Assembly (NCBI GenBank): GCA_003604975.1
Contig: QZIR01000070.1
Span: 1-33,469 of the forward strand
Direction: 5' to 3'
Source of the DNA: Desulforudis sp.
GTDB lineage: Bacteria > Bacillota > Desulfotomaculia > Desulfotomaculales > Desulforudaceae
Length of the DNA stretch: 33,469 nt
Below, piece after piece: positions 14,263-29,012 of this stretch; the first letter of the stretch is position 1; each line of letters opens with the position of its first letter. A model generated the notes under the pieces. That model did no database searches. It saw only the letters and a program-made list of their open reading frames with translations, and was not told the origin of the DNA. Both the position numbers and the translations under genes were made by a program.

Positions 14263-14766
14263 ATGCCGACTATTGCGGACTATATCGCCGAATATATCAG
14301 GGTGCTGTTTGCCGAGAGCGATGATGTCTACATCGAGATCCAGCGTAACGATTTGGCTGCCAAGTTCGGGTGCGCGCCATCCCAGATCAACTATGTTCTG
14401 GCGACCAGGTTCACGACCCAGTCCGGGTTTGTTGTGGAATCCCGGCGGGGCGGAGGCGGGTTTATCCGCATTTTCAAGCTCTCGGCCGAACAGCCAGGGG
14501 ATCTTTTACGGGAGTGCTACCGCCGTATCGGAACCTCGATCAGTGCGGCCGATGTCCGCAGCATCATTGTCCACCTTACGGAGGAGCAAATCCTTAGCGA
14601 GCGGGAGGCCCTTATGATGTACGCGGCCGTGGATGACGCTACGCTAAATCTGGACAGCGCGTGGCGAAATCGCCTGCGTGCGAATATTCTGAAGGCAATG
14701 TTGGCGTCACTTGCTCGCCAGTGTAAACGAAAGGGGGATGCTGATCATGATCTGCGAAAGGTGTAA
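14263..14766 (+). CDS. ctsR: transcriptional repressor CtsR
   Basis: A 167-residue class III heat-shock repressor. The N-terminal winged helix-turn-helix shows QRNDLAAKFGCAPSQINYVL and the wing RRGGGGFIRI, whose glycines act as the thermosensor in studied homologues. The C-terminal part (ILSEREALMMYAAVD) belongs to the dimerisation and McsB/ClpC-sensitive region. It is the first gene of ctsR-mcsA-mcsB-clpC, preceded by its own operator at 14226-14242. ATG 14263 follows AGGGTGATAAG. The last 20 bases overlap mcsA. Confidence 0.95.
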   Translation: MPTIADYIAEYIRVLFAESDDVYIEIQRNDLAAKFGCAPSQINYVLATRFTTQSGFVVESRRGGGGFIRIFKLSAEQPGDLLRECYRRIGTSISAADVRSIIVHLTEEQILSEREALMMYAAVDDATLNLDSAWRNRLRANILKAMLASLARQCKRKGDADHDLRKV

Positions 14767-15274
14767 GCAACGTCCGGCGACGGTACATTATACAGAGATA
14801 ATTAACAACCAGAAGAAACAGATGAATATTTGCGAGGTCTGTGCCAAGGATGAACAGATAGCCTCGTTTAACCTGATGCCCCAGCAGAACCTGCACGATT
14901 TCCTGGCCGGCATCTTCGGACCGGGAAGTGAAGTTGACCAGCTCCAGTGTCCACAGTGCGGGCTCACCGGCCATAAGTTTTCCGCGCACGGGCTCTTGGG
15001 GTGCAGCAATTGCTACCAGGAGTTTGAGGACCGCATCGAGCCGATGATCCGGCGGATACAGGGAACCGGGGTGCATACGGGAAAAGTTCCGGCCCGTTCA
15101 TTGGGCCGTTACCGAGTGATCCGCGAGGTTGAACAGTTGAAGAAGAGTCTGCGGGAGTCTGTAGCCCGGGAGGAGTTTGAGAAGGCCGCCGAGTTACGCG
15201 ACCGGATCCGGGAAACGGAGCAAAAGCTGGCTGGGGAGGAGTATGAAAATGACCATCAAGCAAACGGTGAATAA
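14747..15274 (+). CDS. mcsA: McsA, zinc-binding activator of the McsB arginine kinase
   Basis: A 175-residue protein with four CxxC pairs (CERC at 3-6, CEVC, CPQC, CSNC), forming two zinc sites, and a C-terminal UVR motif (RESVAREEFEKAAELRDRIR) that contacts ClpC or McsB. McsA stimulates McsB, which marks proteins for ClpCP by arginine phosphorylation. ATG 14747 is preferred over ATG 14738 because AAAGGGGG at 14730-14737 needs about 9 bases of spacing. It overlaps ctsR upstream and mcsB downstream, so the operon is translationally tight. Confidence 0.93.
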   Translation: MICERCKQRPATVHYTEIINNQKKQMNICEVCAKDEQIASFNLMPQQNLHDFLAGIFGPGSEVDQLQCPQCGLTGHKFSAHGLLGCSNCYQEFEDRIEPMIRRIQGTGVHTGKVPARSLGRYRVIREVEQLKKSLRESVAREEFEKAAELRDRIRETEQKLAGEEYENDHQANGE

Positions 15275-16331
15275 CCCATACAGCCCCTGGATGGATGACG
15301 ACGCGCCGGAAGCCGATATCGTTATTTCCTCCCGGGTACGGTTGGCCCGGGACATCGCCGGTTACCCCTTTCCACACCTGTTGTCAGGCCAATCGGCCGA
15401 GGATGTCATGGACATCGTCGGTCGTGCCGTGGAAGACGAGGACCTAGTACGGAGACTGGGTAAACTGAAGGTGGTTCGACTATCGCAACTGCCGAGCCTG
15501 GATCGCCAGATCCTGGTTGATAAGCACCTGATCAGCCCCGACCTGTTGAAGGCCGGTGGTGAAGAGGCCAAGGGTGTGGTTATTTCTGAAGACGAGCGTC
15601 TAAGCATAATGATAAATGAGGAGGACCACCTGCGGATCCAGTGCATCCTATCCGGATTGCGCCTGCAGGATGTCTACCTGTTGGCCGATGCCGTGGACGA
15701 TGCCCTGGAAAAGAGGGTTAACTACGCCTTCTCCGATCGCTACGGCTTTCTCACGGCCTGCCTGACCAATATCGGTACGGGGCTCCGGGCCTCGGTGATG
15801 CTGCATCTTCCAGCTCTCGTGGCCAGCGGGGGGATCAGGGATGTGCTTACGGCTGTGTCAAAGCTGGGCCTGACGGTGCGCGGGCTGTATGGCGAGGGTA
15901 CCGAGGCCGCCGGCAACCTGTTTCAGCTCTCGAACCAGATCACATTGGGTCAGAGTGAGGAGGACATCGTTTCCAACCTGGTGTCCATTACCCGCCAGGT
16001 GATTAACCGTGAACGGACGGCGCGACGTTACATATATCAGCAAAAACCGGAAGCGCTGCAGGACAAAGTGTCCCGGGCCTATGGCACGATGCGGCACGCT
16101 TACCTGCTTTCTGCCGGAGAAGCCATGCAGCTCCTGTCAGACGTACGCCTGGGCGTAGATACCGGTTTGGTTAAAGGATTGAGCCACCGGACACTCTCCG
16201 AATTGATGGTTGTGTCCCGCCCCGCCTATCTGGTGAAACTGGGTGGGCGGCTTTCCGCCCAGGAATGTGACATCCTTAGAGCCAGACTGTTTCGTGAGAA
16301 AATGGCTGAAATTAACCAAACAAACGCTTAA
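15249..16331 (+). CDS. mcsB: protein arginine kinase McsB
   Basis: A 360-residue member of the phosphagen-kinase fold. Landmarks are [19 protein letters not shown] near residue 20, [10 protein letters not shown] near 121, and the C-terminal-lobe blocks [19 protein letters not shown] and RTARRYIYQ. McsB phosphorylates arginines on damaged proteins (and on CtsR), targeting them to ClpC. Start ATG 15249 lies 8 bases after GGAGGA; the ATG at 15243 is too close to it. It overlaps mcsA by 26 bases and ends 17 bases before clpC. Length matches the family. Confidence 0.94.
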
Positions 16332-25084: not shown

Positions 25085-26524
25085 TTGGACCTGTACAATA
25101 CCCTGACCAGGCGCAAAGAGAAGTTTGTTCCGGGCGAGCCCGGGCGGGTGAAAATGTATGCCTGCGGACCGACCGCTTATAATTTCATTCACCTGGGAAA
25201 CGCGCGGGCATTGGTGGTTTTTGACACCATCCGCCGCTATTTCATCTACAAGGGTTACCGGGTGACCTTTGTCCAGAACTTCACCGATGTTGACGACAAG
25301 ATCATTAACCGGGCCCGTGAGGAGAACATGGACCCGATTGGCCTGGCCGCAAAATACGTCAACGAATATTTCACCGATGCCGACGCCCTGAACGTGATGC
25401 GGGCTGATGTACACCCGAAGGTCTCGGAGCACCTGCCGGAGATTAAGGAGATGATCGGCCGGTTGGTCGAGCGCGGATTCGCTTACACCACTCCCGAAGG
25501 TGACGTATATTTCTCGGTGCGGGATTTTCCCGGTTACGGCAAGCTGTCCGGGCGAACCCCCGACGATATGCTTGCGGGGGCCCGGGTGGAAATCGACCAG
25601 CGTAAGCGTGATACGCTGGACTTTGCCCTGTGGAAGTCGGCCAAGCCTGGTGAGCCGGCGTGGGGCAGCCCCTGGGGTCCGGGCAGACCGGGCTGGCACA
25701 TCGAGTGCTCGGCGATGTCCTTAAAGTACCTGGGTGAGAACTTTGACATTCACGGCGGTGGCGCCGACCTGATCTTCCCCCACCACGAAAACGAGATCGC
25801 CCAGTCCGAGGGGGCAACCGGTCAACCCTTTGCGCGCTACTGGATCCATAACGGCTTTATCACTATCCGCGAGGAGAAGATGTCCAAGTCCATCGGTAAC
25901 ATCTCCCTGGTACGCGACCTGGTCAAGGCCTTTGGGCCAGCCGTGCTGCGGTCCTTTCTGCTGTCCACCCACTACCGTAGCCAATTGGATTTCGACCCCG
26001 GAAAGATGGACGCTGCGGTTAAAGGGGTCAATCGCCTGAAGACCAGCCTGAACCTGCTCGAAGAGGCCCTCGGCCGTGCCGTGGACAGTACCGAAAACGG
26101 CGCGGATTTCGAAAAGAACCTCGAAGAGCTGCGGGAACGCTTTGAGACGGCTATGGACGACGATTTCAACAGCGCCCTGGCTCAGGCCGTACTCTTCGAC
26201 CTGGCCAGCGAGATCAACAGCTACCTCCACCGTACCCCGCAGCCCGAAGGAGACTCCCTGTTAAAGGCCCGGACACTCTTCGCGGCTTTCAACGGTGTGC
26301 TCGGGATTTTCAAGGAGGAAAACGGGCGGATTGTTCTGGAAGAGGAGGCCGGTTCGGACGACCTTGTCGCCCAGCTGCTCGACCTGATCATCGGGGTCAG
26401 GCAGGAGGCCCGGAAGAAGAAGGATTTCGCCACTTCGGATCGGATTCGGGACGAACTGAAGGCGATCGGCATCATCATCGAGGATACGCCCCAAGGTGTC
26501 CGCTGGAAACGGGGTCAGACTTAA
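25085..26524 (+). CDS. cysS: cysteinyl-tRNA synthetase
   Basis: A 479-residue class I synthetase. The HIGH-type motif is HLGN at 36-39 after Cys27; KMSKS is at 265-269. Zinc ligands include Cys27, the Cys of WHIECSAMS and His/Glu in FPHHENEIAQ. The C-terminal DALR-type helical domain ends EDTPQGVRWKR, where the family usually stops. The last three codons (Gly-Gln-Thr) and the TAA come from the repeat element that begins at 26512. Start is TTG 25085 behind GGGGAGG. Pairing with cysE couples cysteine synthesis to its use. The mini-RNase III gene (mrnC) often found next in Firmicutes is absent. Confidence 0.96.
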   Translation: MDLYNTLTRRKEKFVPGEPGRVKMYACGPTAYNFIHLGNARALVVFDTIRRYFIYKGYRVTFVQNFTDVDDKIINRAREENMDPIGLAAKYVNEYFTDADALNVMRADVHPKVSEHLPEIKEMIGRLVERGFAYTTPEGDVYFSVRDFPGYGKLSGRTPDDMLAGARVEIDQRKRDTLDFALWKSAKPGEPAWGSPWGPGRPGWHIECSAMSLKYLGENFDIHGGGADLIFPHHENEIAQSEGATGQPFARYWIHNGFITIREEKMSKSIGNISLVRDLVKAFGPAVLRSFLLSTHYRSQLDFDPGKMDAAVKGVNRLKTSLNLLEEALGRAVDSTENGADFEKNLEELRERFETAMDDDFNSALAQAVLFDLASEINSYLHRTPQPEGDSLLKARTLFAAFNGVLGIFKEENGRIVLEEEAGSDDLVAQLLDLIIGVRQEARKKKDFATSDRIRDELKAIGIIIEDTPQGVRWKRGQT

Positions 26525-26606
26525 ATAATTAAGTTTTAGAGAATTGTAGGGTTAGACTTAGGGGATTAGGATCTAGGCAATAAATTTAATTTTTTAAGTC
26601 TGACCC
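26512..26606. repeat. hairpin element, copy 1, with GGGTCAGACTTAA ends
   Basis: GGGTCAGACTTAAATAATTA at 26512-26531 and TTAATTTTTTAAGTCTGACC, ending at 26605-26606, are imperfect inverted repeats of about 26 bases around a 43-base centre. The centre holds a degenerate inner copy (GGGTTAGACTTAG at 26549-26561). The left end lies inside cysS and supplies its stop codon; the right end stops just before the thyX ribosome site. Confidence 0.8.
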
Positions 26607-26624
26607 TCTAAAGGAACGATTTTG

Positions 26625-27368
26625 ATGGGACAGAAAACTCTGAAGGTGACACTGCTCCAGCACACCGCCGAACCGGAGCGCCTGGCGGCCCTCGCCGGCA
26701 AACGGTGTTACTCAGGTCTCGATAACGAAAATCTGGTGCGTGACGGACGGGAAAAAGACCCGGCCAAGTTCATCAGTAAGGTAGTTGGCATGGGTCACGT
26801 CACGATCATTGAACACGCTTCCTTTACTTTTGCAGTGGAGGGGGTTAGCCGCAGCCTGCTGGCGCAGATCACCCGCCACCGTCTGGCCAGTTTCAGTGTC
26901 CAGTCCCAACGCTATGTGGGGGAAACCGCGTCCGGGAACTCCGACGGCGTATTCGACTACATTGTCCCGTCCTCCATCGCTAGGCTCGGGCCCGACAGGG
27001 TTGCCGAGTTCGCCCGCCAGATGGCTCAGATCCAGGAATGGTATGACGGCTGGGTACAGGATTTCGGGGGCGGGAGAGATGCCTTCGAGGACGCGCGCTT
27101 CGTGCTGCCCAACGCCGCCGAAACCAAGTTCCTCCTCACCATGAACGCCCGTGAACTCCTGCACTTGTTCACCCTACGCTGCTGCGTACGGGCTCAGTGG
27201 GAGATCCAGGCGCTCGCTGACGGGATGCTGTCCCTGGTGAGAGAGGTCGCTCCCACGATCTTTGCCAAGGCCGGTCCGGCCTGCCTGCGCGGCCCCTGCC
27301 CCGAGGGTGACCTGAACTGCGGGAAGATGAAAGAGGTACGGGAGAAGTACCGGCATTCTGCCGAATAG
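26625..27368 (+). CDS. thyX: flavin-dependent thymidylate synthase ThyX
   Basis: A 247-residue FAD enzyme making dTMP from dUMP with methylene-tetrahydrofolate. The signature RHRLASFSVQSQR at residues 84-96 is intact (RHRxxSxxxxSxR), and VTIIEHASFTFAVEGVSR and LLHLFTLRCCVRAQWEIQ belong to the conserved fold. ATG 26625 follows AAAGGAAC at 26610-26617; a TTG immediately before it is less likely. The C-terminus has a cluster of cysteines (CLRGPCPEGDLNCGK), found in some homologues. The gene is bracketed by two copies of the hairpin element. Confidence 0.95.
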   Translation: MGQKTLKVTLLQHTAEPERLAALAGKRCYSGLDNENLVRDGREKDPAKFISKVVGMGHVTIIEHASFTFAVEGVSRSLLAQITRHRLASFSVQSQRYVGETASGNSDGVFDYIVPSSIARLGPDRVAEFARQMAQIQEWYDGWVQDFGGGRDAFEDARFVLPNAAETKFLLTMNARELLHLFTLRCCVRAQWEIQALADGMLSLVREVAPTIFAKAGPACLRGPCPEGDLNCGKMKEVREKYRHSAE

Positions 27369-27387
27369 AAAGAGCGTACCGCCAAAG

Positions 27388-27449
27388 GGGTCAGACTTAA
27401 AAAATTAAGTTTTTCAATTTTCTAAAACTTAATTTTTTAAGTCTGACCC
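27388..27449. repeat. hairpin element, copy 2, perfect 26-bp inverted repeat
   Basis: The 26 bases from 27388, starting GGGTCAGACTTAAAAAATTA, are exactly complementary to 27424-27449, with a 10-base loop TCAATTTTCT. It shares its ends with copy 1 upstream of thyX. No T-run follows, so it is not a typical terminator, although it could stop or stabilise the thyX transcript. Confidence 0.88.
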
Positions 27450-27540
27450 TCCTAGATCACGAACGTACCTCACTCCTTGCGGGCGGCCCGGCGATTCAAG
27501 ATGCTTCTGATCATGATCCGCGAGCAGTAGGGGATCGTAC

Positions 27541-28110
27541 GTGTTTGGCAAGACCAGACGGTTGAAAGCAGGCACTGCCGTCACCGCCGCCTTCGAGGCA
27601 GGGGGACTGACGGTGCCTTGTGTAGTCCGGGCGCACGCCCGGGCCAGGCGGATCACCTGCCGGATTGATATGCATCCGGAACTCCGCCTCCGGGTCACGG
27701 TCCCGGTGGGCGCCGACCTGCGCGCCGTGGCGAATTTCCTGCGGGAAAAGGAAGCCTGGGTGGCCGGGCGGCTGGAGCGCCACGCGGAAGTCTCCAGGCG
27801 TGTGTACCCCAGCTCGTGGAAGGGGCCGAGATGCCGTCCCTTTGGTGAAAGCTTCCTCCTGCAGATACGTGTTCAGGAAGGCTCCCGGCCTGCCGTTGCG
27901 CGGCAGGGTCGCAGCTTGGTGGCCTGTGTGTCACCGGGGCAAGAAGGACACCTGCACTCGCTGGTGGAAGGCTGGTACCTGGAACAGGCCCGGCGGTACT
28001 TCAGCCTCCGGGTGGAACGCCTGGCCAGGCCGCGGGGCCTTTCTTACGACCGTATTTTCATCTGGAACGGTCGCAGAGGTCCCACCGCCGTGACCACCGT
28101 CCATAAATGA
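27541..28110 (+). pseudogene. YgjP/DUF45-like metallopeptidase, apparently lacking its catalytic end
   Basis: A 189-residue frame from GTG 27541 (AGTAGGGG upstream). The first 165 residues fit the N-terminal part of YgjP/DUF45 (SprT-like) proteins: RRITCRIDMHPELRLRVTVP, then VANFLREKEAWVAGRLERHA and SLVEGWYLEQARRYFSLRVE. After the YDRIFIWN region the usual RWGSCS and HExxH zinc-protease motifs should follow. Instead the frame turns to GRRGPTAVTTVHK and stops, and no continuation was seen in other frames. It is therefore a likely truncated pseudogene, or a stand-alone non-catalytic derivative. Confidence 0.6.
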
Positions 28111-28259
28111 TCCTTACTGAAGAACCACATGGCCGATACCACCTTCGGCTTAGTCCCCATATGTACCGTTTTCCTGCTACTGGTAGGCCAGGCCATGGCA
28201 CAGATCGATTCTTGGTTCACCCGGCGATCCGGGTTAGAATAGGAACAGCGAATTTCCGA

Positions 28260-29012
28260 ATGAAACGGGTGATCGGTCTGGAAGAAGTCATTTTCGGACG
28301 GAACGCGGTACGGGAGGCCTTGCGGGCCGGCACGCCGCTGAACAAGGTGATCCTGGCGCGCGGCATGGCGCCGCAGGTCCGCCAGGAAGTGTTGGTGTTG
28401 GCCCGCCAGCAGGGAATCCCGGTCCAGGATGCGGACCGGGCCCGGCTGGACGCCCTGGCGCCGGGGGCGGCGCATCAGGGGCTCCTGGCGGTGACGGCGG
28501 GACAAGCCTATGCGGACGTGGAAGAACTCTTGCCTGCCGGGAGAACTCCCCTGATCCTAGTCCTCAATGAGATCCAGGACCCCCACAACCTGGGGGCCAT
28601 TTTGCGCACCGGCGAGGCGGCAGGCTGCACCGGCGCCGTCATCCCTGCCAGGCGCGCCGCCGGAATCACCCCGACGGTGGTGAAGGCTTCCGCCGGGGCC
28701 GTGAACTACTTTCCCGTGGCCCGGGTGAACAACATCGCCCGTACTCTCCGTTACTTCAAGGAACAGGGCCTGTGGGTGGCGGGCGCCGATCCCGCCGGTG
28801 ACCAGTTGTACTGGGATACGGACTTGAAGGGTCCGTTGGCCCTGGTTATCGGCGGGGAGGACGCGGGGCTGGGCAAGGTGGTCCGCGAGGAGTGTGACTA
28901 CCTGGTACGTCTGCCCATGGCTGGCCGGGTGGGCTCGCTCAACGCTTCGGTGGCGGCGGCGCTTCTGATCTACGAGGTTTTGCGCCAGAGGAGGCCGGCG
29001 GACCGCCCATGA
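28260..29012 (+). CDS. rlmB: 23S rRNA (guanosine-2'-O)-methyltransferase RlmB (TrmH family)
   Basis: A 250-residue SPOUT methyltransferase. The substrate-binding domain begins VIFGRNAVREALRAGTPLNK. The trefoil-knot motifs are NEIQDPHNLGAILRTGEAAG, ALVIGGEDAGL and PMAGRVGSLNASVAAALLIY. RlmB methylates a conserved guanosine in 23S rRNA using S-adenosylmethionine; other TrmH members modify tRNA, so the target is inferred from position and length. ATG 28260 starts the conserved domain; the ribosome site (AGGAA at 28241-28245) is weak and distant. A longer in-frame extension to 28107 has no family match. It overlaps the NYN gene by ATGA. Confidence 0.9.
   Translation: MKRVIGLEEVIFGRNAVREALRAGTPLNKVILARGMAPQVRQEVLVLARQQGIPVQDADRARLDALAPGAAHQGLLAVTAGQAYADVEELLPAGRTPLILVLNEIQDPHNLGAILRTGEAAGCTGAVIPARRAAGITPTVVKASAGAVNYFPVARVNNIARTLRYFKEQGLWVAGADPAGDQLYWDTDLKGPLALVIGGEDAGLGKVVREECDYLVRLPMAGRVGSLNASVAAALLIYEVLRQRRPADRP

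Follow-up and report, generated by a model that had tools for sequence, protein, structure and literature searches.

The two hairpin-forming inverted repeats on either side of thyX in the analysed window (the whole stretch of Desulforudis sp. DNA under study, 33,469 nucleotides of contig QZIR01000070.1) are best explained as non-autonomous copies, each a doublet of transposon ends, of a TIRtron, an IS200/IS605-like element (probability about 0.88). The mobile family is real, while the direction of its insertions to stop codons is interesting but unproven.

Hairpin elements around thyX and the end of cysS

As an earlier note on this DNA had described, paired inverted-repeat hairpins with GGGTCAGACTTAA ends flank thyX. 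Copy 1 (26512-26606, 95 bp, no strand assigned) lies between cysS and thyX and comprises a left end unit (26512-26538), an inner, older end (26549-26560) and a right end (26582-26606); its 25-nt arms (26512-26536 and 26582-26606) are 92% complementary. Copy 2 (27388-27449, likewise unstranded) is a 62-bp doublet after thyX and is indeed a perfect inverted repeat, with arms of 26 bp and a loop of 10 nt. It begins 19 bp past the thyX stop, and so is not flush with it, and its right flank, read inward, is GATCTAGGA. The left ends of the two copies are 93% identical over 30 nt and the right ends 96% identical over 27 nt. Predicted RNA folds reach -37.1 kcal/mol for copy 1 and -36.7 kcal/mol for copy 2, with z scores of -6.0 and -9.9, respectively, against dinucleotide shuffles. 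The gene between them, thyX (26622-27368, plus strand), encodes an FAD-dependent thymidylate synthase; its listed start is the TTG at 26622, but the ATG at 26625 is the more likely one. Downstream lies a 23S rRNA methyltransferase gene (28107-29012, plus strand), which we take to be rlmB-like and whose place after thyX is conserved in synteny. Between these two genes the window holds a YgjP-like metallopeptidase gene (27541-28110); for this interval the congener Desulforudis sp. J_13 (G001) has nothing comparable at the same position.

The cysS gene (25085-26524, plus strand) ends in GVRWKRGQT followed by its stop, and the final three codons (Gly-Gln-Thr) together with the TAA fall inside copy 1, so that the element does supply the end of the gene, as had been proposed. 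These residues lie outside the matched CysS_C domain (residues 438-474). The earlier note had suggested a comparison with relatives, and in the congener cysS keeps its own stop intact (TGG AAA AGA AAT TAA) and the element starts on the next base, whereas in this genome the frame (TGG AAA CGG GGT CAG ACT TAA) runs into the element, which provides the stop. Copy 1 is probably composite, because a third, inner end-like sequence, GGGTTAGACTTA, lies within it at 26549. Its outer 27-nt unit (26512-26538) agrees with the units of copy 2 at 25 or 26 of 27 positions. The inner sequence is at best a candidate for the ancestral element of the congener: it scores 54, against 33 for the whole of copy 1, but copy 2, from another site, reaches 58. 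It is plausible that an older element sat flush with the cysS stop and that a second end later entered the last codons; alternatively, a few bases may have been deleted at the boundary.

The arrangement of two copies around a single gene also invites the reading that they form a composite transposon, and the note had suggested that the pair moved thyX as a unit or replaced the usual cysS neighbour mrnC. Gene order contradicts both proposals. In the 27 thyX loci used of 30 fetched (L120-L122 were left out), this genome and its congener included, cysS is the upstream neighbour of thyX in every one, mrnC lies between them in 13 and is absent from 14, and rlmB follows thyX in 26. Relatives G002-G008, which lack mrnC, do not contain the repeat pattern at any place in their genomes, the repeats being restricted to this genus among 100 genomes. 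The congener has the copy before thyX; copy 2 is absent from the corresponding interval, with thyX at the same place, although the thyX-rlmB interval differs there altogether and offers no clean empty site for copy 2. These elements may mediate rearrangements, since a wecG-like gene that lies between two of them on contig C64 is located, in the congener, on the opposite side of the transposase. Nevertheless, mobilization of thyX or replacement of mrnC by the repeat pair is rejected by synteny and appears exceedingly improbable.

A transposon family of two Desulforudis genomes

The repeats are not a product of chance, since the 13-mer GGGTCAGACTTAA occurs 17 times in the genome (3.14 Mb, 75 contigs) and its reversed control once. 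A 21-position end pattern gives 26 matches at up to three mismatches, against 3 for the control; at up to two mismatches the 21-nt end gives 24 matches in this genome and 20 in the congener. The further copies that the earlier note had proposed to look for are thus present, and the outcome that it named as a refutation, a lack of other copies together with relatives whose cysS ends in the same way although they have no element, was not encountered. In a sample of 100 genomes, consisting of this one and 99 relatives with G001 as the single congener, the family is found in these two only. The other 98 relatives have 0-1 matches; the single two-mismatch match in each of 8 is taken as background because 13 of the 98 match the reversed control. 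A scan of 84,980 species representatives, which may omit records very near the window's own genome, returned 13 stretches, 12 from Desulforudis sp. isolate J_13 and 1 from Marinomonas polaris; the NCBI taxonomy places Desulforudis in Desulforudaceae, Bacillota. No viral contig matched the end sequence, and carriage of the repeats by phage was rejected.

The two congeners differ in which sites are filled. Alleles that are empty or nearly so were identified for the element on contig C17 of the congener (against contig C4 of this genome and G002) and for the leu site of this genome on contig C38 (against G002, G003 and G005); at the leu site the congener has another GGGTCA-containing sequence instead. 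The empty allele matched to C17 contains GAGGGTCAA at that place, so that loss rather than absence is possible there. At C34, C48, C58a, C60, C63 and C2 the alignments were too divergent to place a boundary. Both genomes are drafts, G001 being a MAG; the comparison has a single congener, and one or more elements are situated at a contig end. Taken with the number of copies and a cognate transposase, the filled and empty sites support the view, already put forward in the earlier note, of a small mobile family resembling REPs and MITEs.

This genome has six Y1_Tnp matches, among which the C64 gene encodes a RAYT-type (IS200/IS605-like) transposase of the kind that had been sought, with the right end of the family no more than 10 bp from its stop. 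Among the 100 genomes it is closest to the gene of G001:C119 (81% identity; next best 49%). The full element in the congener (14526-15545) is a unit of 1,020 bp, opening with GGGTCAGACTTAAAAAGTTAA and closing with the exact reverse complement of that sequence, which gives exact inverted ends of 21 nt. It encodes a 312-aa Y1/HUH transposase with a DnaA-like domain, and the stop codon of the transposase gene lies inside the right end of the element. PF01797 (Y1_Tnp) scores above its cut-off in both cognate proteins, whereas PF08299 (Bac_DnaA_C) reaches 35.0 bits in the copy of this genome (cut-off 31.5) and 31.4 bits, just under, in that of the congener. The translations contain PNHIHL and YIHLNP, which we take to be the putative HUH and Tyr motifs. 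The REP-associated tyrosine transposase model of NCBIfam (REP_Tyr_transpos, NF047646; cut-off 80 bits) scores below its cut-off, at 70.1 bits in the congener and 66.5 in the truncated protein of this genome; two further transposases tested also fell short of 80 bits, at 75.2 and 74.8. A sequence search for relatives of solved structure found none at 0.001.

The C64 gene is 5'-truncated; it lacks its N-terminus and left end, and only the right end remains beside it. Because the matching transposase is incomplete in this way, the family may now be inactive in this genome. Two internally deleted derivatives on the same contig (C64:1583-1819 and C64:2549-2820) each consist of a left end, a 3' transposase remnant and a right end. 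The family thus has the same termini in all its forms, from the full element through the derivatives with internal deletions to doublets and single ends. The wecG-like gene is found to the left of the transposase element in the congener (L172, G001:C119). Here (L060, G000:C64 1-2985) it is found to the right of a VapC-like gene and between two elements, and the first 41 nt of C64 match sequence lying beyond the wecG-like gene in the congener. Unless C64 is misassembled, this layout is an element-associated rearrangement.

Two more tyrosine transposases are encoded in this genome, at about 2615-3655 of L070 (G000:C6) and about 3480-4440 of L071 (G000:C51). They have inverted ends of their own, beginning GGGGTCAGGCCC and GGTGCCAGGCACTTAACTTATT, respectively, so that the TIRtron-like families of this genome number at least three. 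At L179 there are also sequences similar to three types of TIR (GGGTCAAACTTAA, GGGGTCAGGCT and AAGTTAAGTGCCTGGCACC) within about 160 bp of one another (G000:C5:65769-65925), beside a gene that is presumably purH; this is a possible local insertion hot spot.

Hairpins such as these could instead be host regulatory structures, i.e., intrinsic terminators or mRNA-stabilizing folds at the ends of operons that are kept by selection and do not move. Their strong folding (z scores of -4.8 to -12.1 in all six copies tested) and their location at gene ends would suit such a role, but the same ends bound a transposase gene, and some sites are filled in one congener only. Moreover, a terminator scan of 26400-27600 placed no site at either copy and one elsewhere, with a mean of 1.6 in shuffles, and terminator identity was rejected on this result. 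At the Rfam gathering level the window matches four tRNAs, and L060, L062 and L063 match nothing, whereby a known RNA family was also rejected for the hairpins. Purely regulatory hairpins are thus very unlikely, while a secondary, exapted function as terminators is possible.

Insertion flanks and gene ends

Given a mobile TIRtron family, a HUH/tyrosine transposase acting on single strands would recognize the inverted ends GGGTCAGACTTAAAAA(G/C)TTAA, and could excise and insert the folded pair of ends as single-stranded DNA. Insertion would prefer a purine-rich flank containing TAA or TAG. Surviving insertions would then often be flush with stop codons, because TAA and TAG are tolerable mainly at the stop codon of a gene. 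Later decay of an end, or the insertion of a second one, would allow the repeat to supply the stop, as with the Gly-Gln-Thr-stop of cysS, and the hairpin would then become part of the 3' end of cysS and of the cysS-thyX intercistronic mRNA.

The flanks were compared for 45 ends from both genomes, or 38 after removal of 7 orthologous duplicates; a 14-nt end at C41, the inner end at 26549 and two three-mismatch matches were omitted from these and the site counts. The base before GGG is A in 27 of the 38 ends, G in 10, T in 1 and C in none. TAA or TAG lies in the last 6 nt of the flank at 18 of the 38 ends, against a background of 6.1%. Where the triplet is not a stop codon, a classification made by hand, it is still present at 11 of 29 ends. 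Other purine words are enriched less strongly (AAG/GAA, 10/29; GGA/AGG, 11/29). In TIRtrons with other end sequences, TAA or TAG is found in 15 of 35 flanks against a background of 13.1%; these come from 18 loci drawn from a set of 32 transposase loci; L070 is the one belonging to this genome, and for L162 two left ends are counted.

Insertion at gene ends, another of the earlier proposals, is borne out. At 15 of 22 independent sites a gene stop lies between -30 bp (inside) and +7 bp (outside) of an end, compared with 23.5% expected of randomly drawn positions that avoid gene bodies (P ~1e-5), and counted by ends the figure is 16 of 32 (P ~1e-3); this interval was chosen after the data had been seen, and the genes are plain ORF calls. 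At 7 of the 22 sites a stop codon lies 0-2 bp outside an end. The element supplies GQT-stop to cysS, to a gene at C12:71376 and to the VapC-like gene, a profile match below its cut-off. It supplies GSDLKT-stop or GSNLKN-stop to the wecG-like gene, named by profile match, to two genes that we take to be an RND-transporter-like and an rnhB-like gene and, in G001, to one presumed to be MFS-transporter-like. A third frame of element-supplied last codons occurs at C1:151654.

Flush direct repeats of 2-12 bp are absent from all 14 two-ended copies (both genomes, orthologous pairs included). Flush target duplications are expected of most DDE transposons, so their absence fits transposition of a single strand in the IS200/IS605-like manner. 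The element at C1:94732-94795 has a CTTGG on both sides, directly adjoining it on the right but 1 nt away on the left; this non-flush repeat may be due to chance.

How the elements come to lie at gene ends is a separate question from their mobility. One explanation retains the mobile element and attributes this location to purifying selection alone, with insertion nearly random in sequence. It would agree with REPs elsewhere, which according to the 2013 survey of palindromic repeats usually lie close to the 3' ends of ORFs, those of the GTAG type often supplying TAG stops (PMC3733652), and with the enrichment of purine words besides TAA and TAG. However, the 15 of 22 sites remain in excess over a null already limited to tolerated places, and TAA/TAG is enriched where it is not a stop codon and also in TIRtrons with other ends. 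Selection as the sole cause is accordingly a possible reading, held tentatively. Purifying selection and a general purine preference could together explain part of the flank pattern. The stronger proposal, that the TIRYT transposase directs insertion to stop-codon-like TAA/TAG, that the element lands after or in place of the stop and that it carries replacement stops in two frames (GQT-stop and GSDLKT-stop), would make this a transposon adapted to harmless insertion at gene ends; this we consider rather unlikely.

Relation to TIRtrons and REPINs

The same survey named TIRtrons and their transposases (TIRYTs), gave the motif GGGGWSAS for some TIRs and described TIR copies as moderately abundant, and often dimeric, in some genomes (PMC3733652). 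A phylogenomic study of 2018 detected no REP-like sequences next to the genes of TnpA-Y1 subclass 2.1, part of whose members have a DnaA-like C-terminal domain, and states that this subclass probably corresponds to TIRYTs (PMC6006769). REPINs were defined in 2011 (PMC3116915), and the cleavage by TnpA-REP has been treated elsewhere (PMC8266576). Like TIRtrons as described there, the present family has a Y1/HUH transposase with a DnaA-like C-terminal helix-turn-helix, terminal inverted repeats with a GGGGWSAS-like start, and moderately repeated, often dimeric TIR copies. In the congener element the gene is flanked by terminal inverted repeats and not by GTAG REPs, and ends with GGGTCAG satisfy GGGWSAS. 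Unlike the TIRtrons described there, it has ends that read (A/G)GGGTCAGACTTAAAAA(G/C)TTAA, with A mostly in place of the fourth G (27 of 38 ends; G in 10, T in 1), it was found in one genus only, it occurs as complete and internally deleted elements as well as doublets and single ends, and several of its sites are flush with stop codons.

The family resembles REPINs and RAYTs as described in 2011 (PMC3116915) in having inverted end doublets that fold as a hairpin, are non-autonomous and are tied to one tyrosine transposase. It differs from them in that its ends have no fixed GTAG/GGAG tag, the tetranucleotide of REPINs/RAYTs sensu stricto, the flanks being variable (TAGGA, TAA, CAAG, TTGGA and others), in that it has a dozen and a half sites and is not a large family, and in that the transposase gene of the congener seems to belong to an element bearing both ends. 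Like the GTAG REPs of the survey, the copies lie next to the 3' ends of ORFs and can provide stop codons; the TAG of those REPs is in the REP end, whereas here a TAA lies inside the end in two frames, or the stop of the host gene is flush (PMC3733652). Of the 32 transposase loci, 28 belong to relatives outside the genus and 2 each to the congener and this genome; an exact inverted repeat of 12 nt or longer surrounds the gene in 23, and in 16 of these it carries the GGGWSAS motif. This exact-match rule missed L070, which has imperfect ends, and the random windows of the control can overlap a true flank, so that only their means (0-10.8 nt) are informative. Among the papers listed in a literature search on TIRYTs, TIRtrons and the end sequences, the survey of 2013 and the study of 2018 were the relevant ones. 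In a literature search on the genus together with transposases and inverted repeats, no paper naming Desulforudis was among the 15 of 2,393 matches listed. The repeats are thus a new family of a known kind, the TIRtron, in Desulforudis relatives.

The two congeners are 96-100% identical over about 1.3 kb, coding and non-coding, between L062 (G000:C12:57061-58361) and L140 (G001:C58), while other compared regions are about 73-89% identical. The near-identical stretch from C12:57061 onward possibly reflects recent transfer, gene conversion or bin contamination, and some shared sites may therefore reflect recent exchange or effects of assembly and binning, not descent.

With the tempting story of thyX mobility removed as wrong, what is left is a clean case from Bacillota in which one TIR-type tyrosine-transposase family is seen as a full element, deletion derivatives, doublets and single ends. 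The flanks containing TAA or TAG suggest a testable rule for where such elements go, and this rule bears on how they write the last codons of host genes, such as cysS and the wecG-like, rnhB-like, RND-like and MFS-like genes.
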